From Chloroflexia bacterium SDU3-3 (lineage in GTDB: Bacteria > Chloroflexota > Chloroflexia > Chloroflexales > Roseiflexaceae), in NCBI GenBank assembly GCA_009268125.1, contig WBOU01000001.1:587247-651246 (forward strand): a stretch of 64,000 nt of DNA. The letters are read 5' to 3'. Made by a program: the position numbers and the translations under genes. Positions within the stretch are counted from its first letter, which is position 1; the number at the start of each line of letters is the position of its first letter. This document shows, piece after piece, positions 26,571 to 46,453 of the stretch. The notes under the pieces are model-generated. The model worked only from the letters and a program-made list of their open reading frames with translations, had not been told where the DNA came from and searched no databases.

Positions 26571-27296
26571 ATGGCAAACTGGTCTCTGTCGCAACTCCTA
26601 GCCGGACTCCACGATGATATCCAACAACAGTTAGAAACGTGCCGCAAGAGCTTTGGACACCCAGGAACGAAAGGTGATGCGAGCGAAACGGTATGGTTAC
26701 AGCTGTTGCAAACATATCTCCCTAAGCGCTATGAGGCAGCAACGGCTCATGTGGTTGATAGCCAGGGTGTGTTCAGCGACCAAATCGATGTCGTCGTGTT
26801 TGATCGGCAATACTCCCCCTTCATCTTCCAGTATCAAGGGCAGAAGATCATCCCAGCCGAGAGTGTCTATGCTGTGTTCGAGGCAAAACAGAGCATTAAC
26901 GCCGATCAAATCAACTATGCTCAAAACAAAGTGGCAAGTGTTCGGAAGCTCCACCGCACCAGCTTACCGATTCCTCATGCTGGCGGGCAATATCCGCCAA
27001 AGCCGCTCATCCCTATCATAGGAGGTATCCTCACCTTCGAGAGTGATTGGAAGCCGCCTTGTGGTGCACCGCTTGAATCAGCGCTCCTACGAGGGAAACA
27101 AGAAGGGCGTCTTGATATAGGGTGTATTGCTGCCTGCGGGCACTTCCAATGGGATGCAACATCAGATGCATACGACATCTCTATAGGAGGCAAGCCAGCG
27201 ACAGCGTTCCTATTCAAGCTCATTTCGCAGCTTCAGTTTAGCGGAACGGTGCCCATGATTGACGTCCAAGCCTATGCTCACTGGTTGAGCACCTAA
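26571..27296 (+). CDS. PD-(D/E)XK-like putative nuclease (resembles DUF6602 proteins)
   Basis: 241 aa, with AGGAG 8 nt before the ATG, placed immediately after the last degenerate CRISPR repeat. I recall this pattern from DUF6602 proteins, but I could not run a search. QIDVVVFDRQYSPF followed by AESVYAVFEAKQ gives D73, E104 and K106, the D-x(n)-E-x-K arrangement of PD-(D/E)XK nucleases. PLIPIIGGILTF is a further hydrophobic strand in the core. The N-terminal 50 residues look helical. It shares the array's direction and could be reached by read-through of the array transcript, but nothing shows that it is a Cas protein. Nuclease activity is inferred from the motif only. Confidence 0.75.
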   Translation: MANWSLSQLLAGLHDDIQQQLETCRKSFGHPGTKGDASETVWLQLLQTYLPKRYEAATAHVVDSQGVFSDQIDVVVFDRQYSPFIFQYQGQKIIPAESVYAVFEAKQSINADQINYAQNKVASVRKLHRTSLPIPHAGGQYPPKPLIPIIGGILTFESDWKPPCGAPLESALLRGKQEGRLDIGCIAACGHFQWDATSDAYDISIGGKPATAFLFKLISQLQFSGTVPMIDVQAYAHWLST

Positions 27297-28362: not shown

Positions 28363-29037
28363 CTACATCTTAGCCTTGAGTGGAACCCACTTCAGATCCA
28401 CGACAAGCCGACCCGTCTTTCGGTTGGTGACCACATTGATCACCTCAACACGGGCAGAGTTTCCCTCACGGAAACTTGATGTCTTTTTGCCCGCGAGCAT
28501 CTCAGCTTTCAGTACACCTATCGCTTCATCTTCCGGAAAGTCGGGAATAGCTATCTGTATAAACTCTGGATGTATCCCTGTAATACGGCCAGTAAAGCCA
28601 TCTCCTATGTTTGGAAGAGACCTCTCCTTTTTCTTTTTAACATATTCTTCGTATAATTCACTACGACTTACACCTTTTTTACTGCTAAGACCAAATCCAT
28701 TCTCCTGGCTTAGCTGTGTACTCTCTGAACGATACTTTGCAAGACGATATGACCATCCTAAAATCTGCGCAAAATCATCATCCGAAACTTTATGCACTTT
28801 CAAAAATGAGCCTATTAACAGAAATATCTTTCGATAATGATCACTCGTATTCCTATTCTGGCTGAATGGCGTGTCCTCTCCACGCTCATATATCATCTCA
28901 AGTAACAGCCTACGATCTCTCACCATAACAAAATACTTAAATGACTTCTCTAATTCACCTATACCTCGGTCTAGGTGAGATTTAAAAATCTCATCAGCAA
29001 ATTTTTCCGCCAATATATGAATTTCTTTCTGATCCAT
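28363..29037 (-). CDS. Type III-D operon protein with OB/S1-like C-terminal region, unrecognised
   Basis: 224 aa; start at ATG 29037, one base after the stop of the upstream Cas7-like gene and preceded by AGGA. It is the last gene of the type III-D operon, so translation is probably coupled. About 1-130 look mostly helical (for example FLLIGSFLKVHKVSDDDFAQ), then comes a Lys/Glu-rich charged stretch (YVKKKKERS). About 150-220 look like a beta barrel: GDGFTGRITGIHPEFIQIAI, then a strand ending NSARVEVINVVTNRKTGRLVVDLKW, reminiscent of S1/OB RNA-binding folds. I do not recognise the family. The position suggests an accessory subunit of the complex or an RNA-binding partner. Base composition is clearly AT-richer than in the Cas10 end of the same operon. 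Confidence 0.8.
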   Translation of the reverse strand: MDQKEIHILAEKFADEIFKSHLDRGIGELEKSFKYFVMVRDRRLLLEMIYERGEDTPFSQNRNTSDHYRKIFLLIGSFLKVHKVSDDDFAQILGWSYRLAKYRSESTQLSQENGFGLSSKKGVSRSELYEEYVKKKKERSLPNIGDGFTGRITGIHPEFIQIAIPDFPEDEAIGVLKAEMLAGKKTSSFREGNSARVEVINVVTNRKTGRLVVDLKWVPLKAKM

Positions 29038-29038
29038 C

Positions 29039-30133
29039 TTAGTAAATCCTATCACTCCCGCCAGCAACATACTTTGCAGGCTCTCGCATAATTTCCGCGA
29101 GCTTCTTCCGGCTACTCTCATCTATCTCGTTTGATTCATTTGCGGCCTTCACACAGTCTGAAACTGATAGTACGCTATCAACGCGCTCAAAATCAGTATA
29201 GCTTGCATAATCGACCACTGATAGCGCAATATCAGTAAACCGTATCGTTCCCATTGATACCGGCTTCCCTCCACCCACCTTCAGACGAAGAATATCTTGA
29301 TCAGCGCCAAACACAATCAGGATGATACCTAATTCAGCCATAGTCAGGTTACGGAACATGATCTGCATGTGAAACTCGGAGCCTATCGAGCACGCTTCTA
29401 CCGCCGTATATGGCCGCTCAACTTCTCGCGAGTCGCCACTTCGGTAGAACTTACGACCTCTTACCCGACTACGATTACGATCTAGAAAATACTTTTCCCA
29501 ACCAGTGGTAATAGAAGGATCGCCCTCACTATAATCAGGTTGTGGCCGATATAACGGTAGGCGACGAAACAACATTGCGTTTCCTGATACTTGGTAAGCA
29601 TCAAGAAAAGAGCATTGCCCTTGATACGAATTATCCGCGCTTGTCAGCCCGAACAATCGATTGGCAAGGGGCATGATTGGGTCGGCAGGGGACTTATGTA
29701 ATTCTTGTTGTCTGTATTTCATGCGCAACTGCTGAACGTGCACCCCTCGAACCGTCTTCTTCGAAGATTCTACAGAAAACTCAATCCCGGGCAAGGTGAT
29801 CGCCTCTACCGCACTTCTGATAACGCCTTTCAACGTCGATCCAGGAATATATCGCTTCCCCTGGCTTCGCACGTGCGAGGCAACCAGCGTATCATCTTTG
29901 ATCGTTGACCGATCTACATCACCATAGCGAAGAATATCAGATGTAGAAACCACATAACCGGACCCTACATGAACCAAAGATTCACTGATAATCTTGGCAG
30001 ATAGCATCCCTGTCAACAATCGGGCGTGGCTTGAACCTATGGCCAGATGATGCCCCGCTGCCAGGCTATTCTTCGCCGTGGATGAGATCGGAACAAAATC
30101 ATAAGGCTTCTCGCGATGCGTTTCATCAGTCAT
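29039..30133 (-). CDS. Cas7-like RAMP protein, fourth in III-D operon
   Basis: 364 aa. The ATG overlaps the stop of the Csx19-like gene by 8 nt. RAMP features: an N-terminal strand LLTGMLSAKIISESLVHVGSG, then VRSQGKRYIPGSTLKGVIRS, the conserved Cas7 substrate-loop and helix motif. A second half has a Gly-rich turn (VGGGKPVSMGTIRF). It probably forms part of the backbone that holds crRNA. At the position where Csm3 has its target-cutting Asp I read a non-acidic residue (V in TLVASHVRSQG), so this subunit may not cut; that alignment is by eye. A C-terminal helical tail of about 60 residues follows the RAMP core. AT-richer than cas10. Confidence 0.88.
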   Translation of the reverse strand: MTDETHREKPYDFVPISSTAKNSLAAGHHLAIGSSHARLLTGMLSAKIISESLVHVGSGYVVSTSDILRYGDVDRSTIKDDTLVASHVRSQGKRYIPGSTLKGVIRSAVEAITLPGIEFSVESSKKTVRGVHVQQLRMKYRQQELHKSPADPIMPLANRLFGLTSADNSYQGQCSFLDAYQVSGNAMLFRRLPLYRPQPDYSEGDPSITTGWEKYFLDRNRSRVRGRKFYRSGDSREVERPYTAVEACSIGSEFHMQIMFRNLTMAELGIILIVFGADQDILRLKVGGGKPVSMGTIRFTDIALSVVDYASYTDFERVDSVLSVSDCVKAANESNEIDESSRKKLAEIMREPAKYVAGGSDRIY

Positions 30134-30629
30134 TATCTACCCTCACCTCTCGTAAGCGCTGGAACTGTACTGCCCCATTAGGGGCAAGATACTCGGTATA
30201 GGCCACGTTGATATTCGAGGAGCCTGTCTCCCTGAGCATAGCCTTTGCGTGCTTGCACACAAACCATGTGCCATCCTCCCACACCTGCGTCTGGGAATTC
30301 CAGTGAGGAATACAGAGCGGCACGCCGCCTGCGACCTCGGCAGGATGCTCGCAGAGTACGAGCACATCGTAGGTGGTCTCATCGTAGCGCTTCCAGCGTA
30401 CTTCGGCAGACTGGGAGAACGCGTGGCCAAAATCGCCAGCGACCACCACCTCATCAGCGGTGGCAAAGGGAGTCACCGGCTGGAGCTGAGGAGCGGGCGC
30501 GCCATCAAGCCACAGCGCCACCCCACCAAACCAGAAGCCTTGCCCCCCCACATGGGCAGTAATCAGGGTGCGGATCTGCGCGACGCTGGCCGGGTAGACC
30601 CGATAGATATAGCTGGTACCTTCGCTCAT
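30126..30629 (-). CDS. csx19: Csx19-like type III-D accessory protein
   Basis: 167 aa, starting at ATG 30629, which overlaps the stop of the upstream gene (ATGA). Its place among Cas7-like genes next to csx10/cas10, its size, and a beta-rich sequence with SAEVRWKRYDETTYDVLVLCE are in line with Csx19 (TIGR03984) proteins, which mark type III-D loci. The C-terminus (FQRLREVRV) is also beta. No catalytic motif is visible. Csx19 is thought to be a complex subunit. The assignment rests mainly on context and a remembered motif, so the name is tentative; the gene itself is certain. Confidence 0.65.
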   Translation of the reverse strand: MSEGTSYIYRVYPASVAQIRTLITAHVGGQGFWFGGVALWLDGAPAPQLQPVTPFATADEVVVAGDFGHAFSQSAEVRWKRYDETTYDVLVLCEHPAEVAGGVPLCIPHWNSQTQVWEDGTWFVCKHAKAMLRETGSSNINVAYTEYLAPNGAVQFQRLREVRVDND

Positions 30630-31660
30630 AGACCAAGCTCTCGCTTCCAAGCAGGCATACATGCACGCCACATATTGCGTACCTGCGCATCACCAAGTGC
30701 TGTCAACTGCACCCCAAGAAACATATCGTTCTGATACTTAATCTTTTCCGGAAGTGGTGCAAGATCTTCTTTCGGCAACGCATAGGAGCGATACGCCTCA
30801 GAAGCACAGAAGGCTCCCAGCCCCGCAAACTCGTGTTCGGTACATATGGTCTGGCCATTCAGGAGCTTGAGGTGTTGTTCTTGTAGCTCACAGGTTGGAT
30901 AGCGCAGCTCCATCGATTCAAACGTTACACTTACCTGCCCTAAGCCACGTGATTTCCCAAACCCGATGCCTACACGACCATCAGCCACATCACGCAGCGC
31001 AAGACCCAGGAGGCCAAGCTGCGCCAGTGTCAGGTTCTCAAAATGAATCTGTGATCGAAATGAACCACCGACCACCACCTCATAATTGAAAAGACCGCCT
31101 CGTATTGCAGACCCATATACTCGATCAATTGCCACACCGTTGCGTTCTTCGATATATTCCATCTTAAAGTCTTTATCATAGGCATCGGCAAAACGCACCC
31201 GACCAGCAAGGCTAGTATGACCAAAGATCTGGCTGACAAACGACGAACGACGATACACTGTGGCAGTGTAATCCGTTGTGCTGTCCCGTTTTATCTCTTC
31301 AATAGCCCTACCTGAACTATAGCTGATATCAGCTAAACCCTGGTACTCCGTTCCCTTCCCCAAAGGGTTATCCGCGAGAGGGATGAGTGGCTCATTCTTC
31401 CCAAACGCCTCTTCGCGCACATGCTGCTTCTGCTGCTGGAGTAGCTCACTATCCAGCGAGCGGCAGATCCGCTCGGCCTGGGCGCGCACCACGCCCTTAA
31501 GCGAGGGGCCCGGAATATAGATCTTGCCCTGAGAGCGCACAAAGCGCATATCCGGCAGCGTCGGATCGGCACCGCTGCTCTCGCCAGCCTTCACCAGGAT
31601 TGGCCCATGAGGCACAATGGTGAAGGATAACGTCCCCGCAAAGAAGGTCGCCTTATGCAT
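30626..31660 (-). CDS. Cas7-like RAMP protein, third in III-D operon
   Basis: 344 aa. AAGGAG precedes the ATG, which overlaps the end of the upstream RAMP gene by 8 nt. FVRSQGKIYIPGPSLKGVVRAQ is the Cas7 signature; RNGVAIDRVYGSAIRGGLFNY is a shared middle segment; VGIGFGKSRGLGQVSV is the Gly-rich RAMP loop. D37, 11 residues before YIPG, is a candidate for the Csm3-type RNA-cutting Asp (by-eye alignment). The C-terminal 80 residues after the RAMP core are not recognised. It probably forms part of the crRNA-bound backbone of the III-D complex. Confidence 0.9.
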   Translation of the reverse strand: MHKATFFAGTLSFTIVPHGPILVKAGESSGADPTLPDMRFVRSQGKIYIPGPSLKGVVRAQAERICRSLDSELLQQQKQHVREEAFGKNEPLIPLADNPLGKGTEYQGLADISYSSGRAIEEIKRDSTTDYTATVYRRSSFVSQIFGHTSLAGRVRFADAYDKDFKMEYIEERNGVAIDRVYGSAIRGGLFNYEVVVGGSFRSQIHFENLTLAQLGLLGLALRDVADGRVGIGFGKSRGLGQVSVTFESMELRYPTCELQEQHLKLLNGQTICTEHEFAGLGAFCASEAYRSYALPKEDLAPLPEKIKYQNDMFLGVQLTALGDAQVRNMWRACMPAWKRELGL

Positions 31661-32519
31661 GGTTCGCTCCTTGGCTAATCACGCCCGTCGGGTCCATAAG
31701 CGCCGCACGAAAAGCCGCAAACCACGTCTGCATCACATCATCTGGCGCTGAGAGCGGAAGCTCAAGCATACTTCCATCGCCGTAGCCAAGGAGCGCAAGG
31801 ACATCATTGGCGTTCTTAATCGTCTGGAAGACAGCAGACAGCTCATCCAGCTGCACGTACCCCAGGCCGCGCGAGCGGAACCCGCCGATCTGCACGCCGC
31901 CCTGCTGCCAGGGGCGCAGCGCCAACAAGACCATCCCAAGCTGCCACGGTGCCGCGTTCTCAAGCCGCAGCTCGAAATGAAACCGAACACCCGCAGGAAC
32001 GACCTCATAGTCATACAGCAAACCCTGCTCAGCGGTCTCCGTATCACGGTTGAGCGCCACCCCATTGCGGATCTCAAACTGATCAAACCAGATTGAGCGG
32101 TCAACCAACGCATCCTTGAAGAAGATCCGTCCAGCCACCCATGGCGCACCAAAGGTGAGATCGATCAGTGTGGATTCGTTCCAAATCTCCTTGCTCTTAT
32201 CTTTTTTTTCATTATTCTCCGACTGCACGAGCGGCGCAATTGTCCCGCGCTCATGTTCTTCAAGCTGGTGAAAGTCGCGAACCTGCTCGGGTTGCACCGT
32301 GCGTATCAGCGCCTCAATCTGCGCGCGAAACGCGCCTTTCAGCGATGCGCCAGGCACATACGGAGTTCCCCATACATCACGCAATACTGGAAGGTCACTG
32401 CCGATTACATCAAGGGATCGGCCAGCACCAATGCGCAGCGCGGTCTGAGCGACTAACATCCCACGCACGCTCAGCCGATTCTGAAGCGCCGCGAATGAGA
32501 AGATCGATTCACTTTCCAC
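31653..32519 (-). CDS. Cas7-like RAMP protein, second in III-D operon (GTG start)
   Basis: 288 aa. The start codon is GTG at 32519, with GGAGG 6 nt upstream, overlapping the end of the small-subunit gene. Signatures: TPYVPGASLKGAFRAQ, RNGVALNRDTETAEQGLLYDY and GGVQIGGFRSRGLGYVQL. D42, in GSDLPVLRD, matches the Csm3 catalytic Asp position, so this subunit may cut target RNA. By length and motif it is close to Csm3/Csx7-type Cas7 proteins. Translationally coupled to both neighbours. Confidence 0.9.
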   Translation of the reverse strand: MESESIFSFAALQNRLSVRGMLVAQTALRIGAGRSLDVIGSDLPVLRDVWGTPYVPGASLKGAFRAQIEALIRTVQPEQVRDFHQLEEHERGTIAPLVQSENNEKKDKSKEIWNESTLIDLTFGAPWVAGRIFFKDALVDRSIWFDQFEIRNGVALNRDTETAEQGLLYDYEVVPAGVRFHFELRLENAAPWQLGMVLLALRPWQQGGVQIGGFRSRGLGYVQLDELSAVFQTIKNANDVLALLGYGDGSMLELPLSAPDDVMQTWFAAFRAALMDPTGVISQGANHA

Positions 32520-33024
32520 GGGGAGCCTCCGTCGGTGCAGCAGAGGAAAGGGTAGGAGATGTCAACGTATCAAACGCTTTCATCTTGTTCGCGTAGTAGA
32601 ACGCTCGGTTCAAGTAGCCCAGGTAGAGCTGCATCAGCTTGACCTTCGCACGATCACGATCTGCTTCCTCAAGTGTCGGCGGAGACTCCCGATCTCGTAC
32701 AAATTCCAAGACCGCTGTGTGCCACTGTGGGAGCTGATGTGTCAGATCTTCTATCACCTTATGGCCGAAGCTATCTGGCATCTCCCCCCAGGCCTTACCC
32801 TTGCGCGCGATCTGGTAGCGGATAAAGTTGATCACCACCTCCTGTGAGCGCGACTCAATCGCCGCATTCAACAGATTGCGCAGCTGGCTCTCCTCCATTT
32901 CGGAGTTATTTTTCAACAGTACCACCCTCTGATTCGCCTGGCGCACTAGCGTATCCATCTGGCGCTCGATGCCCTGCTCTATCAGCAGATCGCGACGCAG
33001 GGTCGCAGGATCAAGGTCACTCAT
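32509..33024 (-). CDS. cas11: Type III small subunit (Cas11/Csm2-like)
   Basis: 171 aa, almost wholly helical by appearance, as expected for the small subunit that lines the target-RNA channel. SQLRNLLNAAIESRSQEVVINFIRYQIARKG is the segment I associate with Csm2-like proteins of type III-D loci (here given only as a described region at about residues 46-77). The C-terminal 20 residues are Pro/Ala/Thr-rich and carry the translational coupling site for the next gene. It lies between csx10 and the second Cas7-like gene. The call rests on context, size and the helical segment. Confidence 0.72.
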   Translation of the reverse strand: MSDLDPATLRRDLLIEQGIERQMDTLVRQANQRVVLLKNNSEMEESQLRNLLNAAIESRSQEVVINFIRYQIARKGKAWGEMPDSFGHKVIEDLTHQLPQWHTAVLEFVRDRESPPTLEEADRDRAKVKLMQLYLGYLNRAFYYANKMKAFDTLTSPTLSSAAPTEAPRGK

Positions 33025-33033
33025 GCTGCCTCC

Positions 33034-34191
33034 TTAGAGATGAAACTCATCACAGATACGGACCTGGCCGTAGCCCTCGGCGCGGCGATCCCCGATCCCA
33101 TCGTGCTCCAGCGCCACCAGCCGCTGGCACTGCGCATCGTCGAGCCGACCCGGCACCTCATAGACAAACAGGCTGCCCATCTGCGTCGCCACCGCTGTGG
33201 GCTTGGGGCGCTGCCATGAGACATTCCAGCCGCCCACAGCGCTCGTGGTGGCCCAGGCCCGCACCAGCCGCGCATCGATCCCCGTCCGCTCCTTCAGCAT
33301 CGCCGGGCTCAGCTGATTCGTCGGCAGCCAACCCTGCTCGGTCAAGAGCGCGTCGGAGAGGAGGTTCACGGTGAAGATGGTGCCAGGTGTCCAGGGTGTA
33401 CCGCCCATGGCCTCATACAGCGTGGCCGTATCGCGGAAACGCGCGCTCATCGCATCGATCCGCCTGCGCAGATCGGCGACATGATCCTCAGCGGGCAGCT
33501 CCGCGCCCACCTGGATGCTGACCTCACCGCTGCCCGTGGTCTGCCGCCCGCCCAGCAGGGAGATCGCCGCAAGCTGGCCCACAAGATCCGGAACGTCCTC
33601 GGGCACCGCCACGCTGCCCAAGAAGCGGGTTGGAACCAGCTCGCCGTCCAGCTCCATCACCTCGCTGATCACCAGCGGCGAAAACAGCTGGCCATCCGCC
33701 GTCGTCCCGCGCCGCCGGTTGATGGCCACGCGGGTGAGCACCCGCTGCTGCACGCTGCGGAAGACGGGGGTATGCGTCTTCTGATCCCGCGTGTAGAAGG
33801 CCCGCCCAACCGCCTCCCAGGGGCGGCCCTCCGCATCCGTCGGGGCATAGATCAGCGCGGGCGGGCGCTGCTGCTCCCAGCACACCCGGTCGTAGAGCGC
33901 ATCATGGGTGATCTGCTCATCGCCCTTGGGGCGGAGCGCCGTCATCGGCAGCGGGCGCGACCAGGGGTCGCCCGCGAGGGCGGGGTAGGCGTTATGGCAG
34001 CGAACCGCGCGGAAGAGCCGCGCCAGCTCCTCGGGGGTATGGGCCTGCCGCCCGCCCAGCCGCGCGCCGAGCGCGCCATACAGCACCGCCCCCGGCACAT
34101 AGGGCAGGCTCGCGCGGAACTGCACCCCCGGCTTGCGCTCGGGAAAGGCCAGCGGGCCGCGCGCCTCAATCGTGATCGGCAGATACCTCAT
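33034..34191 (-). CDS. csx10: Csx10, type III-D Cas5-like RAMP
   Basis: 385 aa, starting at ATG 34191, which overlaps the stop of the upstream Cas7-like gene (ATGA); longer in-frame starts read into that gene. Csx10 is the signature of subtype III-D and occupies the Cas5 position that binds the crRNA 5' tag. Signatures: ASLPYVPGAVLYGALGARL near the N-terminus, RVAINRRRGTTADGQLFSP in the middle, and Gly-rich GGRQTTGSGEVSIQVG. The C-terminal part has DRRAEGYGQVRI, a RAMP Gly-rich loop. Length fits the family. Confidence 0.9.
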   Translation of the reverse strand: MRYLPITIEARGPLAFPERKPGVQFRASLPYVPGAVLYGALGARLGGRQAHTPEELARLFRAVRCHNAYPALAGDPWSRPLPMTALRPKGDEQITHDALYDRVCWEQQRPPALIYAPTDAEGRPWEAVGRAFYTRDQKTHTPVFRSVQQRVLTRVAINRRRGTTADGQLFSPLVISEVMELDGELVPTRFLGSVAVPEDVPDLVGQLAAISLLGGRQTTGSGEVSIQVGAELPAEDHVADLRRRIDAMSARFRDTATLYEAMGGTPWTPGTIFTVNLLSDALLTEQGWLPTNQLSPAMLKERTGIDARLVRAWATTSAVGGWNVSWQRPKPTAVATQMGSLFVYEVPGRLDDAQCQRLVALEHDGIGDRRAEGYGQVRICDEFHL

Positions 34192-34856
34192 CGCAGCCCC
34201 CCCGCTGTCAGCACCGCGCGCAGGTCGTCGGCCAGATCCGCGAGGGGCAGCGGGGTGTCGTCGACCCACAGCCGCACGTCCGCCCGCGCCCAGCCGAGGC
34301 CGCGTGACTTCGCCCCACCCCAGCGATCGGTCAGCTGGATGGCGGCGGCCAGCAGCGCGGCGCTCCGGCGTACGGCAGCCACCTCGTCAAACGCCCCGAT
34401 GATCGCGCGCTGGTGCTGAAAGGCCATCCCCTCATGCGCCACCTCCTGGTAGAGCAGGCGGGCGTCCTCCGCCGTCCCGCGCCGCCGGTTGATCGAGACC
34501 GACGGGCGGATCTGGGTCAGACGCCGCTGGAACTCAGGGGCTTGCGGGGCGTCCACCAGCGTGCTCGGCAGATCGGCAAAGCGCAGGGCCGCGCGGCGCG
34601 TCGCGCTACCAAACAGGTCTTGGATCAGCGACCCCGTATCGAGATCGTTGGGAAACGGCACCGCGTGCCCGACCCCGCGCAGCAGCTGCTCGGCGGCGCA
34701 GCGCAGCTTGCCCTTCACCTGCGATCCGGGGATGATCGGTCGCCCCCAGCCATCGCGCACGATGCTCGTATTGGCCAGCGTCCCGGCGCTCCCGCCCGCC
34801 CCGATGCGCAGCGCCGTCTCCAGCTGGATCGTCAGATCAACGGTCAGTACGCTCAT
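34188..34856 (-). CDS. Cas7-like (Csm3-type) RAMP protein, first in III-D operon
   Basis: 222 aa, starting 4 nt before the cas10 stop (ATGA-type overlap). Signatures: ALRIGAGG, RPIIPGSQVKGKLRCAAE, INRRRGTAEDARLLYQE and GGAKSRGLGWARAD. A single RAMP domain of Csm3 size. At the Csm3 catalytic Asp position I read Asn (TLANTSIVRD), so cutting by this subunit is doubtful; the alignment is by eye. It binds crRNA as part of the backbone next to Cas10 and Csx10. Confidence 0.9.
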   Translation of the reverse strand: MSVLTVDLTIQLETALRIGAGGSAGTLANTSIVRDGWGRPIIPGSQVKGKLRCAAEQLLRGVGHAVPFPNDLDTGSLIQDLFGSATRRAALRFADLPSTLVDAPQAPEFQRRLTQIRPSVSINRRRGTAEDARLLYQEVAHEGMAFQHQRAIIGAFDEVAAVRRSAALLAAAIQLTDRWGGAKSRGLGWARADVRLWVDDTPLPLADLADDLRAVLTAGGLR

Positions 34857-36949
34857 TGTTGGTCCTTCACCATGTCATAGATCTCCAGCATGTCGGCCCA
34901 GATCGTCTCCCACGCTCCCGCCTCAACCGCCCGCCACGGGGGCAGCGATTCGCACCACCGCTCTTGCACATGTGTCTTCAGCACGCCCGCCATACGCTCA
35001 TTGCGGGCGCACGTATAGAAATACTCCATCACGCTGGTGACGATTGTCTCCCCCGGCTGCTCATCCAACATGCGGCGCAGGCGATAGAGCTGCGAGCGCG
35101 GCACCTGCTCATCCTGGAGCGCGCGCACGGTCGTGATCAGCGCGGAGAACTCTCGCCAGGTGTAGGGGCGCGCCGTCAGCCGCCGGTCGCCCCCCATGCC
35201 CAGGGCCTGCCGCCGAAAGCTCTGGATATTATCCGTCACCATCGAGATAGACTTTAGGACCATGAAATCGACCGCCCCACCATAGAAGCCGTGCGCAGTA
35301 TGCTGCTTGGCCTTCTTCTTCGCGCTCTTCAGCAGCTCCTCCACCAGGTCGCGCAGGAAAAAGATCGGCGTGGTCTCCGGCGCGATAATCACCCCGGCGG
35401 AGAGGCCCACCAGCGGCTCAAACGGCTCATGAGCGCTCGCAGCCTTGCTCCGATGCGAATACAGGTCATCCGTGATCGCCGATGGCCCATTCAGGTCGCC
35501 GATTGCGCGGAGGCGCTCCGCGATACACTGCTCAAATGAGGCGCTGATCGCTTCGGCGATCTCCAGCGCCTTACTGCCGGGCACGATGATGAAGAGGTCA
35601 TCGCCGCCAATCGTCAGGATCTCAAAGGGATAGACCCACTTCTTCTGACCAGGCGTCGCTGAGCGGAGATCATCAATCTCGATCGGCACCACATGGCGTC
35701 CCAGGGCATGAAACACCGCCGTCTTCGCCGCAGCGCTCAAGGTCGCAGAGACCGCTTGGTAGCGCGCCGGGGTCGTCAGGGTCGCAATCAATCGCCCAAC
35801 ATTATTCCCATCGGCATAGATCACCCCGATAAAGCCATCCGGGCGCGACGCCTGGGCGATCTCCTGCACATCGCTGGCCGCCGTCGCACGCTGCGCTTGC
35901 GGGTGCTGAGCGAGCTGCGCAGACACGTGCGCGGGGTTTTGGACAAACGCCCGCCACTGCGCTTCCCAGGAGCGCTCTGCGAGCGCATCTGGTGCTCGCC
36001 ATGCAAACGTATCGGTATACCATCGGGTGTGGGCAGCATCGCGCTTGAGGAGCTGACCCACGTAGCGCTTGCGTGCCGACGGCTCGCTCAGCTTCCGCTC
36101 TTCATCGACCACCATGCCGCTCCAGACCGCCGGGCGCAGATCACTGCTGTCGCACTTCTCAGCCCAGGGGAGAATGGGGTAGTGAGGGATGCTGCGCGTG
36201 TCGCCGCCGAACGAGCGCTCCTCACGGCGGCGCGTGGTCATCGTCGCGAGGAGGGTCACCAGCTCGCCAAAGGTCTTCCGGCGAAAGAAGCGCTGCTCTG
36301 GCGCATCCACAGGATCTGCTGGTTGCGCATAGTAGTAGGTCGCAAGGCGCTTCTGAAGCTCGTTCTGGCTCCACTGTTGCAGAAACTCCTCGACCCAAAA
36401 CGCGATCGCGCCATCGCGAATCGCGAGCTGCCCATAGCGCAGCTCCAGCAGGTGAACGGTGTGGGTCACAAACACACTGTTCGCCGTCAGGGTGGTGGTG
36501 GTATAGCACCGCTCGGCGGCGGCAGCCAGCTCCTCGCCCAGCGCGGCGGGGGCAAACGCCAGAAAGCCGCCGCCGCTGGCGTAGATGACGCACGCCTGCC
36601 CCAACTCCTCCCCGAGCCGTCCGGCCCACAGCTGCGGAACGGCATCCTCATTCACCCAGTCCAGCAGCGCACTGGCCCCGCGTATCTCGGGGAGCTTGGG
36701 CGACTCAAACACATAGCCCTTGATCTTGGTCGCGCCGCCCATCACCAGCGCGATCTGCGCCTGATCCTCGGGCAGCACCGCGTGAATCTGATCGAGCCGC
36801 GCCTGGAGCTGCGCGCGGTCAGGATCGGCGTTGTCTCCCAGCACCTGCTCGACCACGGCCCGCACGCGCCCCTCATGCGCCGATGAGCGGTCAGCGGCAC
36901 CCCACAGCAGGCAGGCCGTCACCGCCTGGGCAAAAGACGTCTCGGTCAT
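34853..36949 (-). CDS. cas10: Cas10, type III-D, without HD domain
   Basis: 698 aa large subunit of the III-D complex. Start ATG 36949, with AAGGA 9 nt upstream. The N-terminus begins with a short helical region, then KIKGYVFESPKLPEIRGASAL, the typical Cas10 palm-1 entry (about 75-95). The second palm has YADGNNVGRL (about 378-387) and the intact cyclase motif IGGDD (GGDD 448-451), so cyclic oligoadenylate synthesis is expected. No HD motif is visible, so single-stranded DNA cutting is not expected. The C-terminal 150 residues are helical (domain D4). The neighbouring first gene of the operon encodes a SAVED protein, a known cyclic-nucleotide sensor fold. Confidence 0.93.
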   Translation of the reverse strand: MTETSFAQAVTACLLWGAADRSSAHEGRVRAVVEQVLGDNADPDRAQLQARLDQIHAVLPEDQAQIALVMGGATKIKGYVFESPKLPEIRGASALLDWVNEDAVPQLWAGRLGEELGQACVIYASGGGFLAFAPAALGEELAAAAERCYTTTTLTANSVFVTHTVHLLELRYGQLAIRDGAIAFWVEEFLQQWSQNELQKRLATYYYAQPADPVDAPEQRFFRRKTFGELVTLLATMTTRRREERSFGGDTRSIPHYPILPWAEKCDSSDLRPAVWSGMVVDEERKLSEPSARKRYVGQLLKRDAAHTRWYTDTFAWRAPDALAERSWEAQWRAFVQNPAHVSAQLAQHPQAQRATAASDVQEIAQASRPDGFIGVIYADGNNVGRLIATLTTPARYQAVSATLSAAAKTAVFHALGRHVVPIEIDDLRSATPGQKKWVYPFEILTIGGDDLFIIVPGSKALEIAEAISASFEQCIAERLRAIGDLNGPSAITDDLYSHRSKAASAHEPFEPLVGLSAGVIIAPETTPIFFLRDLVEELLKSAKKKAKQHTAHGFYGGAVDFMVLKSISMVTDNIQSFRRQALGMGGDRRLTARPYTWREFSALITTVRALQDEQVPRSQLYRLRRMLDEQPGETIVTSVMEYFYTCARNERMAGVLKTHVQERWCESLPPWRAVEAGAWETIWADMLEIYDMVKDQQ

Positions 36950-40361: not shown

Positions 40362-42626
40362 ATGGCCGATTCTGCCGATCCAATGGGCGCAGCCTGCGAG
40401 GTGCTGCGCTACTGGGCCACCTATGCGGGCCAGCCGCCCGATCCGGTGCCCTCCCCAACGATTTTCGCAGAGCTTACCAGGCGTAAGGCCGTCGAGCCAC
40501 GCCTCACCAGCATTTTTAGCCAGCTCCCCAAAGATGCTGGTGAGGAAAAGAAGCTAACCTATGTCAGGCCAGCGCCGCTGACCGTTAGCGGGGAGACCAT
40601 CTTCCCAACAACCGAACCAAACGACCCGACTGCGCAGCGCCAGCGGCTGAACCAGGCCGCTGCCAGCATCATCGCGGCGTCCCCCGAGCCGCAGCAGCTG
40701 ACCGCGCTGGCCGACCTGCTGGAGCGCGAGGCGTGGTGCCTACCCTCGCCGCTGCCAGGCATCCCGCTCTACGACTTCGCCCGCGTGCATGCGGCGCTGG
40801 CAGCAGCCCGGGCGCACGGCGGGGCGACGCTGCTGGTGGGCGGCGATGTCTCGGGCGTGCAGGACTTCATTTACACCATCCCCGCCAAGGGCGCGGCCAA
40901 GCAGCTGCGCGGGCGCTCGCTCTACCTCCAGCTGCTGTCCGAGGCCATCGCCCGCTACATCATTGGCGAGCTGGGCATGCCCGAGGTCTGCTTGCTCTAC
41001 TGCGGCGGCGGGCGCTTCTACGCGGTGCTGCCGAACAAACAAGAGAAGCTGGACGAGATGAAAACAAGAATCGCCCAAGTGCTGCTGGAGCGTCACGGCG
41101 TCGCGCCCTACCTGGCGCTGGGCTGGCAGCCGCTTGCAGGCGACTACAGCAAGCTCTGGGAGAAGCTGCATGAGCAGATCAACCAGGCCAAGCAGCGCAA
41201 GTTCGCCGACCTAGAGACAGAAACGCTGCAAAATCTGCTGTTCACCCCGCGCGAGCAGCACCAGCCACAGCCCGATCTCGGCGAGGCTGAAACGGATGCT
41301 TTTGGACGATCCATCGCAGAAATGGGCGGAAAAGTCGGCCAGGCGCTCTATCTTCGGGATTGGAAAATCAATCGCTACGAACACCCTGAAATGCAGCGCG
41401 TACCAACGCACTGGCATCACGTGCTGAACGCCTTTCGCAGCGGCCTCCGCACAGAGAGCCAGGAGCAGCTTAAGCAGCGTACGCCTGATGATCGACCCTC
41501 ACGCCTACGAGCCATGCGCGATCTCACACCAGAAGAGGAGGAGGTGGCAAGAAACAAGCTCGGCCAAAGCGGCACCCTCGGGCGGCGCTACACGGTCAAC
41601 GAGGTGCCGCTGGTGACGGCCATCGACCTCGCGCAGACCCACGACGAGCAGGCGTACATCCCCGGCGATGAGCCGCGCGAGGGCGAGCCAAAGCCCTTCG
41701 GCATGCTGGCCGAGCAGAGCCAGGGCATCAAGCGGCTGGGCGTGCTGCGCATGGATGTGGATGACCTGGGCGCGCTGTTTGGTGGGCGCGAGAAGGCCGA
41801 GCGCAGCATCGCCGATCTGGCCGAGACGGCGGCGCTCTCGGCGGCGCTGGGCCGCTTCTTCGAGGGCTATGTGGGCACGCTCTGCCGCAACATCAACAGT
41901 GCGATCAGCCGCAAGGAAGAGCCAGATGGCGGCATCTACACTGTCTACAGCGGCGGCGACGACCTGTTTATCGTCGGGTCGTGGCACCTGCTGCCCGATC
42001 TGGCCTATACCATCCGGCAGGAATTTGCCCGCTATGTGACGGGGAAAACCAGCGAGGGCGGCGCATACATCGAGTCGACCATCACGCTCTCGGCTGGCAT
42101 CACCCTGCACACCAGCAAGTTCCCGATCTACCAGGCCGCCGACATGGCCCACGAGGCGCTGGAGGCCGCTAAGGCATTCACGCGGCCAGCCCAAAAGGGT
42201 GAGAAGAAGGGCCGACCGAAGGACGCGCTGACCTTCTTGGGCATCACCATCGGCTGGGAGGACTACGCCGAGCTGCAGCAGCGACAGCGGCAGCTCTACG
42301 ACCTGGTGCAACAGGGCGCACCTACCGCCCTGCTGATCACGCTGCAATCCCTGGCCCAGCAGGCGCGGCCCAAGCGCTTCAACCGCGACGGTAGGCCGCA
42401 GGCCAGCCACGGCCCGTGGATGTGGCGCGGTGCCTACATGCTCACGCGGCTGGCCGAGCGCGTCGGCAAGCGCGAAGGGGGAGAGAAGTCGAGAAAAGAG
42501 ATCGAAGATCTCATCCACTACATCCGCCACCCGCTGAAGGAACATTCGGCCAATCAGCCCATCATCCTCGCAGGCATGGCTGCGCGCTGGGCGCAGCTCC
42601 TGCTCCGAGGCGAAGATAAAAGATAA
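40362..42626 (+). CDS. csm1: Cas10/Csm1, type III-A, without HD domain
   Basis: 754 aa large subunit. The start has AAAAGGAG upstream. The N-terminal 150 residues correspond to the part of Csm1 after the HD domain (LTSIFSQL, then WCLPSPLPG, LYDFARVHAALAA), so the HD nuclease is missing rather than mutated. Palm 1 starts LVGGDVSGVQDFIYTI with KGAAKQLRGRSLYLQLL. Palm 2 has LRMDVDDLG and YSGGDD (GGDD 531-534), so cyclic oligoadenylate synthesis is expected. The Cys-rich zinc-binding segment usual between the palms is not seen (no CxxC). The C-terminal D4 region is helical. It heads an operon with csm2-csm5 and two csm6 genes at 9-12 nt gaps or overlaps. Confidence 0.94.
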   Translation: MADSADPMGAACEVLRYWATYAGQPPDPVPSPTIFAELTRRKAVEPRLTSIFSQLPKDAGEEKKLTYVRPAPLTVSGETIFPTTEPNDPTAQRQRLNQAAASIIAASPEPQQLTALADLLEREAWCLPSPLPGIPLYDFARVHAALAAARAHGGATLLVGGDVSGVQDFIYTIPAKGAAKQLRGRSLYLQLLSEAIARYIIGELGMPEVCLLYCGGGRFYAVLPNKQEKLDEMKTRIAQVLLERHGVAPYLALGWQPLAGDYSKLWEKLHEQINQAKQRKFADLETETLQNLLFTPREQHQPQPDLGEAETDAFGRSIAEMGGKVGQALYLRDWKINRYEHPEMQRVPTHWHHVLNAFRSGLRTESQEQLKQRTPDDRPSRLRAMRDLTPEEEEVARNKLGQSGTLGRRYTVNEVPLVTAIDLAQTHDEQAYIPGDEPREGEPKPFGMLAEQSQGIKRLGVLRMDVDDLGALFGGREKAERSIADLAETAALSAALGRFFEGYVGTLCRNINSAISRKEEPDGGIYTVYSGGDDLFIVGSWHLLPDLAYTIRQEFARYVTGKTSEGGAYIESTITLSAGITLHTSKFPIYQAADMAHEALEAAKAFTRPAQKGEKKGRPKDALTFLGITIGWEDYAELQQRQRQLYDLVQQGAPTALLITLQSLAQQARPKRFNRDGRPQASHGPWMWRGAYMLTRLAERVGKREGGEKSRKEIEDLIHYIRHPLKEHSANQPIILAGMAARWAQLLLRGEDKR

Positions 42627-42636
42627 GGAGAAAAGC

Positions 42637-43158
42637 ATGTCCGATGAACGAGCTGCAAGCTCTCAATGGGTAAAAACGAAAGTCTCAGATACAACACTTA
42701 AGCAGATCTTGACTGAGGAATCATCCAAAGCAATAGAGCTATTGGATCAGACTGCCGAGATCATTGGCCAGGAACTACACAGTCTCAACTTTACAACATC
42801 ACAAATCAGGGCCGTTTTTGGACGCGTTCGAACCATTGAGCAGATGGTTAATGTACCAGATGTTGATACAAAAAATGGTTCAAGCGAGGAGTCCATCAAA
42901 TCCAAGCTATCGCTTCCGGTTTATACAGAACTCCGCCTGCTGCGTCCCAAGCTCGCCTATCAATATGGGCGAACCGGAGGCGAGGATAAGCGCGGAAAAG
43001 AGAAAGACAATCAAAAAGTCGCGATGGGTATCCTCCAGCAAGTCCTCTCCAATGCTGTCGCCATTGTCAATGACGATGCAGCAGCATTTCAGCGGTTCGT
43101 GAGCTTTTTTGAAGCGATCCTCGCCTACCATCGATACTACGGTGGCAAGAATAGTTAG
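42637..43158 (+). CDS. csm2: Csm2, type III-A small subunit
   Basis: 173 aa, 10 nt after csm1, with AAGGAG upstream of the ATG. Mostly helical. SQIRAVFGRVRTIEQM and LSLPVYTELRLLRPKLAYQYGR (described region, about residues 88-110) match the Csm2 pattern, where the Tyr/Arg-rich helix faces the crRNA-target duplex. The C-terminus holds FQRFVSFFEAILAYHRYYGG, the usual end of Csm2. A charged insertion (EDKRGKEKDNQK) separates the helices. AT-richer than csm1. Confidence 0.92.
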   Translation: MSDERAASSQWVKTKVSDTTLKQILTEESSKAIELLDQTAEIIGQELHSLNFTTSQIRAVFGRVRTIEQMVNVPDVDTKNGSSEESIKSKLSLPVYTELRLLRPKLAYQYGRTGGEDKRGKEKDNQKVAMGILQQVLSNAVAIVNDDAAAFQRFVSFFEAILAYHRYYGGKNS

Positions 43159-43167
43159 GAGAATGCT

Positions 43168-44049
43168 ATGACTATCAAAGAGATCCAGCTTGCAGGCCGA
43201 ATCTTCCTGTCGTTCGATATACAGCTCCTCTCAGGCCTCCACATTGGCGGCGCGGCAACGGCAATGGAGATCGGCGGACTCGACAAACCCGTCATCCGGA
43301 ATCCACTCAACAACCAACCCTATATCCCTGGCTCCTCGCTCAAAGGCAAAATGCGCTCACTGATGGAGAAGGCACGCCATGCGCCCCAGAATTTCCCCAT
43401 CAATGAGGCAAACGGTGTCTTTATGCACCTTGCCACCTCGCCGGAAGAATACAAGGATTTTCCTATCAGCAAGATCTTTGGGAGCCTACCCACAGTCAAA
43501 CCTCGCACCGAGGGAAAAACTGAGTTTAGCATCGGTACGCCTACACGACTTGTTGTGTGTGATATCGCATTAAGCGAAGATAGTGTCAAAATGTTCGACC
43601 CCAAGCGCGTCGCTACGGATCTGCCCTACAGCGAAGTGAAATGGGAAGCCAGCATCGACCGCGTGACATCTGCTGCGTCGCCACGCCAGATCGAGCGCGT
43701 ACCTGCAGGCATGGTGTTTGGACCAGCCAAACTGATCTACAGCGTGTATGTCGGTAATGATGAGAAAGCTCCAGAGGTAGCAAGTTGGTTCGAGCACGTC
43801 ATCGAAGCGCTTGAGCACCTGGAGGATGATTATCTGGGCGGCATGGGCACGCGAGGCAATGGGAGGGTGAAACTTATCAATTTGAAACTAACCACCCGCA
43901 AAATAGGGAACGAAGGATATGGCCGCGAAACCATTATCCCACTCTCCGAAGACATTGATTCTAATACGCTCGAAATACACCAGATTGATCGAACCAAACT
44001 CGCACAAAGGCTTGCGAAGCATTTTGCCGATACCGACAGCCAATCATAG
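43168..44049 (+). CDS. csm3: Csm3, type III-A backbone RNase
   Basis: 293 aa, 9 nt after csm2, with AGGAG upstream. Csm3 forms the filament that carries crRNA and cuts target RNA at 6-nt steps. GLHIGGAATAMEIGGLDKP carries D39, aligned by eye to the catalytic Asp D33 of S. thermophilus Csm3. YIPGSSLKGKMRSLMEKA is the diagnostic Cas7 motif; SIDRVTSAASPRQIERVPAG and YLGGMGTRGNGRVKL are further Csm3 signatures. Somewhat longer than the usual 220-250 aa because of a C-terminal extension of about 40 residues. Confidence 0.96.
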   Translation: MTIKEIQLAGRIFLSFDIQLLSGLHIGGAATAMEIGGLDKPVIRNPLNNQPYIPGSSLKGKMRSLMEKARHAPQNFPINEANGVFMHLATSPEEYKDFPISKIFGSLPTVKPRTEGKTEFSIGTPTRLVVCDIALSEDSVKMFDPKRVATDLPYSEVKWEASIDRVTSAASPRQIERVPAGMVFGPAKLIYSVYVGNDEKAPEVASWFEHVIEALEHLEDDYLGGMGTRGNGRVKLINLKLTTRKIGNEGYGRETIIPLSEDIDSNTLEIHQIDRTKLAQRLAKHFADTDSQS

Positions 44050-44061
44050 TAGGAGCTGGTT

Positions 44062-45222
44062 ATGCCAACGCTCAAGACATACCTGCTCTCAGGCCCCACA
44101 AACCAACTCCCCCTATCTCCTCACTTTGGCATCACAGGAATAGGGTTAGAAAACGCCAGAGGCACATGGCCATCGGACTCGCTGTTTGCTGCGCTGGTTG
44201 CTCAGGCCGCGCTGATGGGCAGCCAAGGAATACATTTCATTGATGAAATGAAAGGGGCAAATCCACCGCTACGCCACAGCTCGCTGTTTCCACGCATCGG
44301 CACCATGATTCTGCTACCACGTCCTATGATAAAGCTCCCATTTGATGATAAAGACAAGGAGACAATTAACAACATCGGCAAGGGATTTAAGAAAGTGCGC
44401 TGGCTCTCACCCATACTGTTCAATGCAGTATGCATGCAACAGGAACTCAATGCATTTAACCATATCACACTCCAACATGGCGAAGTATGGATCAGTGCAG
44501 AAGAGACTGCACAGCTTCCAAAAGATTGGAAGGTGCAAGATCCCAATAGCAAAGAACAACAAGCCACAATCCGAGCAAAAGAGCTATGGAAACAAGAGTC
44601 TATACCACATGTAGCTGTTGACCGCAGCAGTAGCACATCGGCTTATTATGAAACAGGCCGATTCAGCTTTGCAGACCAATGCGGGCTGGGCCTTATCATC
44701 AGTCTACGCCAAGAGTGGGAAGCCTTCTTCGAACAACTACTGGATCTGCTGGGAAACAGCGGGATAGGCGGACGGCGCTCCATCGGCTATGGTCAGTTTT
44801 CGTGGGCACGAGGGCCATTATTAACTTTTCCTGACTTCAACGGGGGACGTGTGGTAACCCTCTCTCGCTTTCTGCCACAAGACAACGAAATTGCCACCAT
44901 CCAAGACCCTAACTCAAGCTACCAGCTCAGCGATATTGATGGCTGGGCGCTAACACACGAAGGGGCATCATTTCTCCGAAAACCTATAACCATGCTCTCT
45001 GAAGGCTCTGTGCTTGCCAAACGAGTACGAGGGCAGGTGGTGGATGTGCGGATCTCACCAGAATACCCATCACATCCGGTGCTACGCAGCGGTCTAGCGC
45101 TCACCGTGCCTGTTGTGCCACCTACAACCAATAACCGCGCTGGAACGACAAACTCATCTCAAAACAATAACACCGCTGGGGGGGCAAGCAAGAGTAAGGA
45201 GAAAAAACGTGGCCGACGATAA
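44062..45222 (+). CDS. csm4: Csm4, type III-A Cas5-family subunit
   Basis: 386 aa, 12 nt after csm3, with AGGAG upstream. Csm4 binds the crRNA 5' tag and contacts Cas10. RGTWPSDSLFAALVAQAAL is the N-terminal family motif (helix after the first strand), HVAVDRSSSTSAYYETGRFSF the middle motif, and GIGGRRSIGYGQFSW the Gly-rich RAMP loop. The last 40 residues are an unusual low-complexity tail (Asn/Thr-rich, then KSKEKKRGRR). The tail codons contain the ribosome site and GTG start of csm5, so the tail may partly reflect that overlap. Confidence 0.93.
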   Translation: MPTLKTYLLSGPTNQLPLSPHFGITGIGLENARGTWPSDSLFAALVAQAALMGSQGIHFIDEMKGANPPLRHSSLFPRIGTMILLPRPMIKLPFDDKDKETINNIGKGFKKVRWLSPILFNAVCMQQELNAFNHITLQHGEVWISAEETAQLPKDWKVQDPNSKEQQATIRAKELWKQESIPHVAVDRSSSTSAYYETGRFSFADQCGLGLIISLRQEWEAFFEQLLDLLGNSGIGGRRSIGYGQFSWARGPLLTFPDFNGGRVVTLSRFLPQDNEIATIQDPNSSYQLSDIDGWALTHEGASFLRKPITMLSEGSVLAKRVRGQVVDVRISPEYPSHPVLRSGLALTVPVVPPTTNNRAGTTNSSQNNNTAGGASKSKEKKRGRR

Positions 45223-46453
45223 AAGGGATCCCACGTTCAAGCTCACGATCACCGCTCTTTCTCATGTACATATCAGCAGCGGCAATACGCTCACACGAGA
45301 TGTCGATTTTCTCTATGATGCATCGAGCAATAAGACATCCTTTGTACTCAACGATAACGCTGTTGCCTATCTGCTAGAGGATGAGGAGCATCCAGAATGG
45401 CTATCACTGAGCGACATCCTGAAAAAGGCAGGTATCAAACCAACACGGCAAAACGCACCAACGCTCGAAGTTGAAGGCCTCCCACTTGTTCGCTACATGC
45501 TGACGGGAGCACCTTCTAGCAAGACAAACTCGCCGTTTCAGCCGCTCCTTGAGCAAATCAAGGATGTGTTTGACCGTGCCTACATCCCCGGATCATCACT
45601 GAAAGGCGCGATCCGTACCGCGCTGGCCTGGAGTGCGTTTCCAAACAGCAATCTGGATGTATCTCTTGCCGCGCTAAGAGTGAACGGGACGTTGCCTATT
45701 GCAAAGTTTGCAGCGCAGAACTATGAGCAGCAGCTATTTCATAGCGAAAGCAGCAACGGATCACCAAGCGATGCGCACACCGATGTGCTACGCGCAATGC
45801 GCATCAGCGATAGCACACCGATCACCAAAGAACTCCTTCTTCGGCAGGTTGGGAGTACCACCGACAGCTCCCAACCTACCGAGCTCGGCAACCGGTGGAG
45901 GAGCAGCACCAACGTACAAAATCACCGAAAGCCAATCCCGCTGCCCGACATCGAGACCATTCCCAAGCTGGCTGAATGCACCATGCATCTTCAATTTGAT
46001 CGCTATGCCCTTCTCCCACATGGTACAAGGCAAGATTTCAGCAGCAAAGCCGAGCTTCTCACAAACTTTGTCGCAGCTTGTCGAGAACGAGGCATGCAAC
46101 TTATTGAGCATGAGCTTGCTTTTTATAATGAGAGAAAGCAAACGTTGCCAAACGTTGCCAGCTTCTATCAGGATCTTTCACAAAAAGCACAACGCCTTGA
46201 TCCAAACAGCTTTATGCTTCAAATCGGCTGGGGTACAGGATGGCATAGCAAAACACTCGATGAACGACTCACCGAACATACAGAGGAGTTTAACGAGATT
46301 GCCAACTATAAGGACTATAAGCTCAAACGAGGAAAAGCGATTAAGCCAGGTGATATCTTCCCCATCAGCCGCAAGCTGATTAAAAACGATGCTAACGTGC
46401 TTAGCGAACCCCTCGGCTGGGTGCGCGTGGATGTGGCGGAGGTGGCGCGATGA
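45209..46453 (+). CDS. csm5: Csm5, type III-A Cas7-family cap subunit (GTG start)
   Basis: 414 aa. I place the start at GTG 45209, with AAGGAG 7 nt upstream and a 14-nt overlap with csm4; an in-frame ATG at 45113 lies deep inside csm4. Csm5 caps the 3' end of the Csm3 filament and helps crRNA maturation. LTITALSHVHISSGNTL is the N-terminal strand, RAYIPGSSLKGAIRTALAW the RAMP motif and MLQIGWGTGWHSKTL the family's C-terminal motif. It ends with an ATGA overlap with the first csm6. Confidence 0.94.
   Translation: MADDKRDPTFKLTITALSHVHISSGNTLTRDVDFLYDASSNKTSFVLNDNAVAYLLEDEEHPEWLSLSDILKKAGIKPTRQNAPTLEVEGLPLVRYMLTGAPSSKTNSPFQPLLEQIKDVFDRAYIPGSSLKGAIRTALAWSAFPNSNLDVSLAALRVNGTLPIAKFAAQNYEQQLFHSESSNGSPSDAHTDVLRAMRISDSTPITKELLLRQVGSTTDSSQPTELGNRWRSSTNVQNHRKPIPLPDIETIPKLAECTMHLQFDRYALLPHGTRQDFSSKAELLTNFVAACRERGMQLIEHELAFYNERKQTLPNVASFYQDLSQKAQRLDPNSFMLQIGWGTGWHSKTLDERLTEHTEEFNEIANYKDYKLKRGKAIKPGDIFPISRKLIKNDANVLSEPLGWVRVDVAEVAR

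Follow-up and report, generated by a model that had tools for sequence, protein, structure and literature searches.

The III-D operon and its last gene

The window, meaning the whole stretch of 64,000 nucleotides analysed here, carries on its minus strand a type III-D CRISPR operon in the order cas10, Cas7, csx10, cas11, Cas7, Cas7, csx19, Cas7, csx21. Profile searches identify it as a III-D1 operon by its cas10, csx10 and cas11, its four Cas7-like genes and its csx19. The genes, and the two parts of the last one, are the following:

34853 to 36949, minus strand: cas10, GGDD motif present (profile matches)
34188 to 34856, minus strand: Cas7-like gene (profile matches)
33034 to 34269, minus strand: csx10, the Cas5 of III-D (NCBIfam TIGR02674, 188.6 bits against a cut-off of 177.3)
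32509 to 33024, minus strand: canonical cas11, Csm2-type (PADLOC Csm2, E 1.1e-40)
31653 to 32519, minus strand: Cas7-like gene (Csx7; TIGR02581, above cut-off)
30626 to 31660, minus strand: Cas7-like gene (profile matches)
30126 to 30671, minus strand: csx19 (PADLOC Csx19, E 9.6e-32)
29039 to 30133, minus strand: last Cas7-like gene, TIGR03986-related (NCBIfam TIGR03986, E 2.1e-24, under the cut-off; Pfam RAMPs)
28363 to 29037, minus strand: csx21-type gene, 224 amino acids (open reading frame, PADLOC Csx21, AlphaFold2 model, S1 fold, predicted N-domain fold of a family member)
28705 to 29037, minus strand: N-terminal helical domain of Csx21, residues 1-111, the constant part of the family (family alignments)
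28366 to 28620, minus strand: predicted C-terminal S1/OB module of Csx21, about residues 140-224, net charge +3, pI 9.6 (structure search and charge)

The csx21 reading frame is intact: it opens with an ATG at 29037 on the minus strand, its stop ends at 28363 and it encodes 224 amino acids. At the junction ATTTACTAAGATGGATCAG the TAA of the Cas7-like gene is followed by a single base and then by the ATG of csx21 (TAAGATG). An earlier sequence-only reading had placed the frame one base 3' of a Cas7-like gene, as the last gene of a III-D operon; the coordinates and the letters of the junction bear out the first point, and the content and order of the operon the second. An alternative in-frame ATG at 29121 would give 252 amino acids and would overlap the Cas7 gene, and the start giving 224 amino acids lies roughly where the alignment of homologues begins. 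A set of 60 related genomes, with that of the window among them, yielded matches to the gene in 15 (13 as a standalone gene and 2 as a fused barrel), and the frame is therefore not due to chance.

Further genes and two CRISPR arrays lie near the operon. A NucC-type gene (26571-27296, plus strand; PADLOC E 8.2e-112) is convergent with it and stands between it and a CRISPR array of 122 repeats. The window holds 188 repeats (counted with at most 5 mismatches), the other 66 belonging to a second array that starts at 51955 and whose repeat is nearly the same as that of the first. A second type III operon, extending from Cas10 to Csm6-like genes (40362-49289, plus strand), lies beside the III-D operon.

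Assignment to the Csx21 family

The window protein matches four PADLOC profiles of Csx21, the best being PDLC01485 (E 1.1e-9 over residues 10-205 of 224; the PADLOC output gives no curated cut-off), and all 13 members of the family alignment match Csx21 profiles as well. Pfam and NCBIfam gave nothing above noise for the window protein and a sequence search of the PDB gave no match to it; the same database searched with the family profile returned weak S1 matches only (best E 0.025). PADLOC holds Csx21 as profiles PDLC01042, 01083, 01485, 01516 and 01524, labelled 'Type III-D associated', 'CAS-III-A; associated' and 'Unknown function', and is silent on what the protein does. The window protein resembles the family in a profile match that covers most of its length, in its association with III-D and in a two-part layout shared with close homologues; it differs in being a divergent copy, 22-28% identical to the aligned homologues, with a short linker. 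The gene is a real and intact member of a named, functionally unstudied family, Csx21.

Helical, Ala/Pro-rich proteins that have nothing to do with Csx21 also match PDLC01042, at E values as low as 5e-47, and this profile used alone therefore produces false csx21 copies. Such second copies in G002, G004, G009, G012, G015 (C129) and G017 (C157) were rejected and dropped from all counts, the profiles of the Csx21 N-domain and S1 module giving nothing above noise on them. Examples are G002:C1:2289996-2290838 and G012:C139:54446-55216; the proteins are presumably phasin-like.

The all1473-type proteins, which the earlier reading had named as a possible match, correspond to Csx19, encoded in the window by a separate gene (30126-30671). 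In the 2011 text of Makarova et al., all1473 is named apart from a ribosomal S1 (OB) domain reported for csx10-bearing systems, "which forms two distinct fusions" (PMC3150331). The S1 protein of csx10 systems was thus already in print, and the two fusions fit Csx21 and the Cas7-S1 fusion described below; the accessible part of that text gives no fold for the helical part and assigns no function (PMC3150331). The description of the gene as unrecognised has to be withdrawn in view of the PADLOC match and of the S1 domains reported for csx10 systems in 2011 (PMC3150331). The known family to which it belongs is known by name, Csx21, for which no described function was found in the searchable literature (supplements lying outside the search).

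A helical half and a predicted S1/OB barrel

The AlphaFold2 model of the full-length protein (mean pLDDT 81.4, pTM 0.46) agrees with the helical first half and barrel-like second half read earlier from the letters. Helices are modelled at residues 3-19, 26-39, 42-55, 62-82 and 86-112, followed by a low-confidence linker and by a five-stranded barrel (147-155, 159-162, 172-177, 194-204 and 211-217). The barrel aligns with the S1/OB fold of 2k52 over 74 of 74 residues (Z 11.3, rmsd 2.1; Foldseek E 1.9e-5), and its other structural matches include GSP13, bS1, PNPase and eIF2alpha. The Pfam S1 profile (PF00575) matches 4 of 13 family members, at best with 1.9e-4, and is absent from the window protein. 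By prediction and this weak profile match, the C-terminal part is an S1/OB fold. All 18 S1 modules compared are basic, with a net charge of +2 to +6. Classical S1 domains such as those of PNPase and S1 carry conserved aromatic residues that contact RNA, in a motif of the F-G-x-F type; such a motif was not evident in the alignments of the family or of the S1 modules.

The barrel was also considered as the INS domain of Cas7-insertion and Cas7-11 because of the Cas7 fusions described below, and this candidate was dropped. The module follows the complete TIGR03986 model, from which a linker separates it, and is not inserted into it; moreover, the 50 structural matches listed all cover the barrel, and their titles name S1-type, translation, exosome or transcription proteins. 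Viral relatives of csx21 were absent from a viral contig collection, and a viral structure library gave no match with E up to 0.001.

Many RNA processing proteins contain S1/OB domains, and PNPase, RNase R and exosome subunits are among the structural matches. Csx21 might accordingly be read as an operon-linked RNA-binding helper for crRNA loading, trimming or 3'-end protection, acting on RNA or on assembly intermediates and missing from the finished complex. The flexible linker of the model would suit such a protein, and so would the absence of Csx21 from the subunits listed, in the accessible parts of the reports, for the solved III-Dv and SsoCsm complexes (PMC11026444, PMC9945777). Three results presented below speak against a helper and lead us to regard it as unlikely: the predicted N-domain fold is of Cas11 type, the constant part of the family is the helical domain with S1 optional, and in other loci the S1 module is joined to a subunit of the complex.

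The helical domain, as modelled, resembles Cas11 small subunits

Since S1 proteins filled the structure matches of the full model, the helical part was modelled alone, from a typical family member (L034) that is 25% identical to the window copy. This model (pLDDT 92.5, pTM 0.84) has as its top four Foldseek matches in the PDB chains B, C, A and E of 8bmw, with probability 1.00 and TMq 0.64-0.65; their E values are 0.20-0.31, none reaching 0.001, and the fifth match falls to a probability of 0.10. Chains A-E of 8bmw are the five copies of 1424 (Cas11) of the Saccharolobus III-D complex, according to the accessible part of its report (PMC9945777). A structural second look (VIA) aligned the L034 domain with 8bmw_C over 94 residues (rmsd 2.6) at a Z of 10.8; for helical bundles the tool recommends about 13, which this alignment does not reach. 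Cmr5, Cmr-complex and Csm chains follow at Z 8.2 to 6.4, among them Cmr5 2zop_E (Z 8.2) and Csm 6mur_B (Z 7.6). The best 12 rows comprise 11 type III CRISPR chains, ten of small-subunit size; the eleventh is the C-terminal region of the Cas10-sized Csm chain 9no4_A at rank 10, and the only non-CRISPR entry is TRiC at rank 7 (Z 7.2). Because Z values near 10 can be common for helical bundles, the argument lies in a ranking filled by the protein class expected from the context, not in the number itself.

The models thus suggest that the N-domain has a predicted five-helix fold of Cas11 type, as judged from L034. Sequence comparison finds no such kinship: hhalign of the N-domain with the operon's own Cas11 gave a probability of 1.4%, broader profiles 0.6% (0.4% for a reversed control), and Cas11, Csm2 or Cmr5-type profiles were absent from the Pfam, NCBIfam and PADLOC matches of the Csx21 proteins. 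Csx21 is therefore not filed as a Cas11, but only as possibly working like one. It would share with Cas11 (Sso1424 in 8bmw, Cmr5, Csm2) the predicted five-helix fold, these proteins being its best structural matches, and differs from them in lacking sequence similarity, in bearing an S1 tail and in being encoded besides the operon's own cas11. The net charge of the N-domain varies from -7 to +6 across members. That the helical half, modelled alone, best resembles the Cas11 of III-D and then other type III small subunits is new here.

The Csx21 loci group in one III-D1 clade

After removal of collection duplicates and of false PDLC01042 matches, 28 distinct csx21 loci remained, the window included. 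Two of them, L019 and L081, lie at a contig edge and were left out of the synteny count; in all 26 with enough contig, csx21 follows the last Cas7 gene of a III-D operon, at no more than 40 nt in 13, at 41-400 nt in 5 and further away in 8, where other genes or spacers lie in between. Homologues mainly outside type III loci, which would have spoken against a III-D protein, were not encountered, all 26 checkable loci being III-D. A co-occurrence survey over 400 genomes of the phylum found PDLC01485 in 20 and csx10 in 62, and each of the 20 Csx21-positive genomes was also csx10-positive. In two cyanobacterial plasmids (Allocoleopsis and Nostoc UHCC 0870) the csx21 end of the operon has the same gene order. 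The Allocoleopsis plasmid carries a TnsA-type gene upstream of its III-D operon (L067, 1-356).

A tree was built from the third Cas7 (Cas7c) of 37 loci, 23 with Csx21 and 14 Csx21-negative III-D1 loci; the latter are a selection from csx10 matches, and the loci read cover part of the 42 csx10-positive genomes among the 400 that lack a PDLC01485 match. All 23 Csx21 loci fall on a single branch (support 95/89) that spans Chloroflexota and Cyanobacteria and contains no Csx21-negative locus. The window neighbours L012, which is the same 7178-base contig as L027, from Kouleothrix aurantiaca. As a gene retained on one branch across two phyla, csx21 behaves as a core gene. Its strict linkage to III-D1 and the grouping of its loci on one branch of the Cas7 tree are new here. 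The predicted shape of the protein, a helical piece like the Cas11 small subunit plus an S1-type barrel, suggests an additional component of the CRISPR complex and not a novel type of system. The proposal that the gene encodes a new III-D subunit is thus supported in kind, by the III-D linkage and by csx10 in 20 of 20 genomes; that its family is new to science is not, given Csx21.

One candidate for a very divergent N-domain, a 116-codon frame right after the last Cas7 of L103 (7350-7700), proved unsupported (whole-sequence E 0.097 in a 19-sequence set), and L103 was counted as Csx21-negative.

The number of cas11 genes raises a further reading, by which Csx21 would stand in for a second Cas11 subunit, the product of a tandem cas11 duplicate in other III-D1 systems. 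Exactly one cas11 is present in 23 of 23 Csx21-positive loci, and among the 14 Csx21-negative III-D1 loci examined nine have two in tandem and five have one. The Fisher test on these counts (p 1.6e-5) ignores relatedness, however, and the three states form three single branches of the Cas7c tree, which amounts in effect to one independent contrast; the five loci with a single cas11, besides, have neither csx21 nor a duplicate. The reciprocity of csx21 and second cas11 is therefore suggestive only, and we keep this replacement as an improbable rival of low weight. The tandem-cas11 clade, in which csx21 was not detected, consists of L101 (10411-11405), L107, L108, L109, L110, L111, L112, L083 and L118, the last on a contig that ends before the last Cas7, so that its csx21 status cannot be read from the sequence.

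A constant helical half and a mobile S1 half

The helical half is found in 23 of 23 III-D1 loci of the clade, the window included; in L079 a stop interrupts the frame, and the part still open retains just the end of this half. The S1 half, in contrast, was not found in five of these 23 loci (L068, L078, L080, L099 and L100), so that RNA binding by S1 would not be essential, with the proviso that the L099 gene reaches the edge of its contig and may be truncated at its C-terminus. The csx21 genes of L072 and L077 also run off their contigs. L078 (10219-10803) and L080 (11117-11824) carry another C-terminal sequence that is not S1 and has no Pfam match; judged by eye, the former tail looks helical and the latter strand-rich.

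Four loci carry the S1 module on another protein, as a C-terminal extension of the last Cas7 (TIGR03986 type): L018, L024 and L117 from Chloroflexota, and L096 from Anabaena cylindrica. L117 is counted here by its matches to the last Cas7 and to the S1 profile rather than by a TIGR03986 match. All four are compact III-D loci that lack csx21 and in which the profile detected no cas11. The L018 module and its linker barely differ from their counterparts in L016, a locus of the same genus group whose Csx21 is a standalone protein. The TIGR03986 last Cas7, or Cas7-insertion of III-Dv, thus has in these loci the same C-terminal module as Csx21; it differs in being a Cas7 (RAMP) where Csx21 is a helical protein, and relatives such as that of Planktothrix L097, which is close to the Anabaena protein (62.6% identical over residues 1-730), have no S1 module. 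A helical half that is constant while S1 is lost or replaced, and a last Cas7 that bears the S1 module in four loci, are new observations and an example of domain hopping between two neighbouring subunits. The III-D lineage is thought to be the source of the single-protein type III effectors.

A proposed place at the crRNA 3' end

According to the accessible parts of two reports, the 3' end of the crRNA is held in III-Dv by the Cas7-insertion subunit, with a 6-nt seed left exposed (PMC11026444), and SsoCsm is capped by a Cas7-like protein, 1427 (PMC9945777). By analogy, the last Cas7-like gene of the window would encode the Cas7 of the crRNA 3' end. If the last Cas7 occupies the same place as its III-Dv and SsoCsm counterparts, an S1 module borne by this Cas7 or by a Cas11-like neighbour would come to lie at the same spot, and it is because S1 would be placed at the crRNA 3' end either way that we favour a Cas11-like subunit with an RNA-binding S1 tail.

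We infer incorporation, position, stoichiometry, RNA binding and its effect from fold, context and analogy. The N-terminal five-helix domain would work like a Cas11 small subunit and would probably sit at a single fixed site where the small-subunit filament ends, next to the last Cas7 at the crRNA 3' end. From there the flexible linker would present the basic S1/OB domain at the crRNA 3' end, where its probable ligand is the exposed 3' part of the crRNA or else the target RNA's 5' flank; in this way it may help to capture or hold RNA. We give about even chances to Csx21 being a stably incorporated, clade-specific subunit of III-D1, with its Cas11-like N-domain at the crRNA 3' end and S1 binding RNA. 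With somewhat less assurance, we propose that in one III-D1 clade the crRNA 3' end is capped by a dedicated Cas11-like subunit with a fixed position, and that the resulting 'head' serves as a modular display site, where S1 may be borne by this subunit or by the adjacent last Cas7 and may be lost or give way to other domains. If this is true, III-D complexes would differ in their ways to catch RNA or partners. The subunit hypothesis would also turn an uncharacterised 'associated' label into proposals about the location of Csx21, about a possible limit that it sets to the small-subunit filament and about S1 as a means to seed or retain target RNA.

Some loci encode a further protein between the last Cas7 and csx21, in L021 (1607-2773, minus strand), L028 (1871-2926), L031 (918-2615), L033 (8668-9615) and L038 (8867-9964). 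Their heads differ (SLFN AlbA_2 in L021, L033 and L038, CHAT in L031, trypsin-like in L028) and their TPR-like tails are similar. Csx21 could thus be conceived as a docking platform whose Cas11-like part sits on the complex and whose C-terminal part, which differs in L078 and L080, recruits the effectors encoded in this slot. We consider such a platform distinctly improbable: in 13 loci, that of the window among them, no more than 40 nt separate csx21 from the last Cas7, which leaves no room for a slot gene there, and the similarity of the tails is weak, the best i-E between different heads being about 5e-6 in an 8-sequence set. The CHAT and TPR protein of L031 presumably resembles Csx29 of Craspase, but is encoded in a multi-subunit III-D locus.
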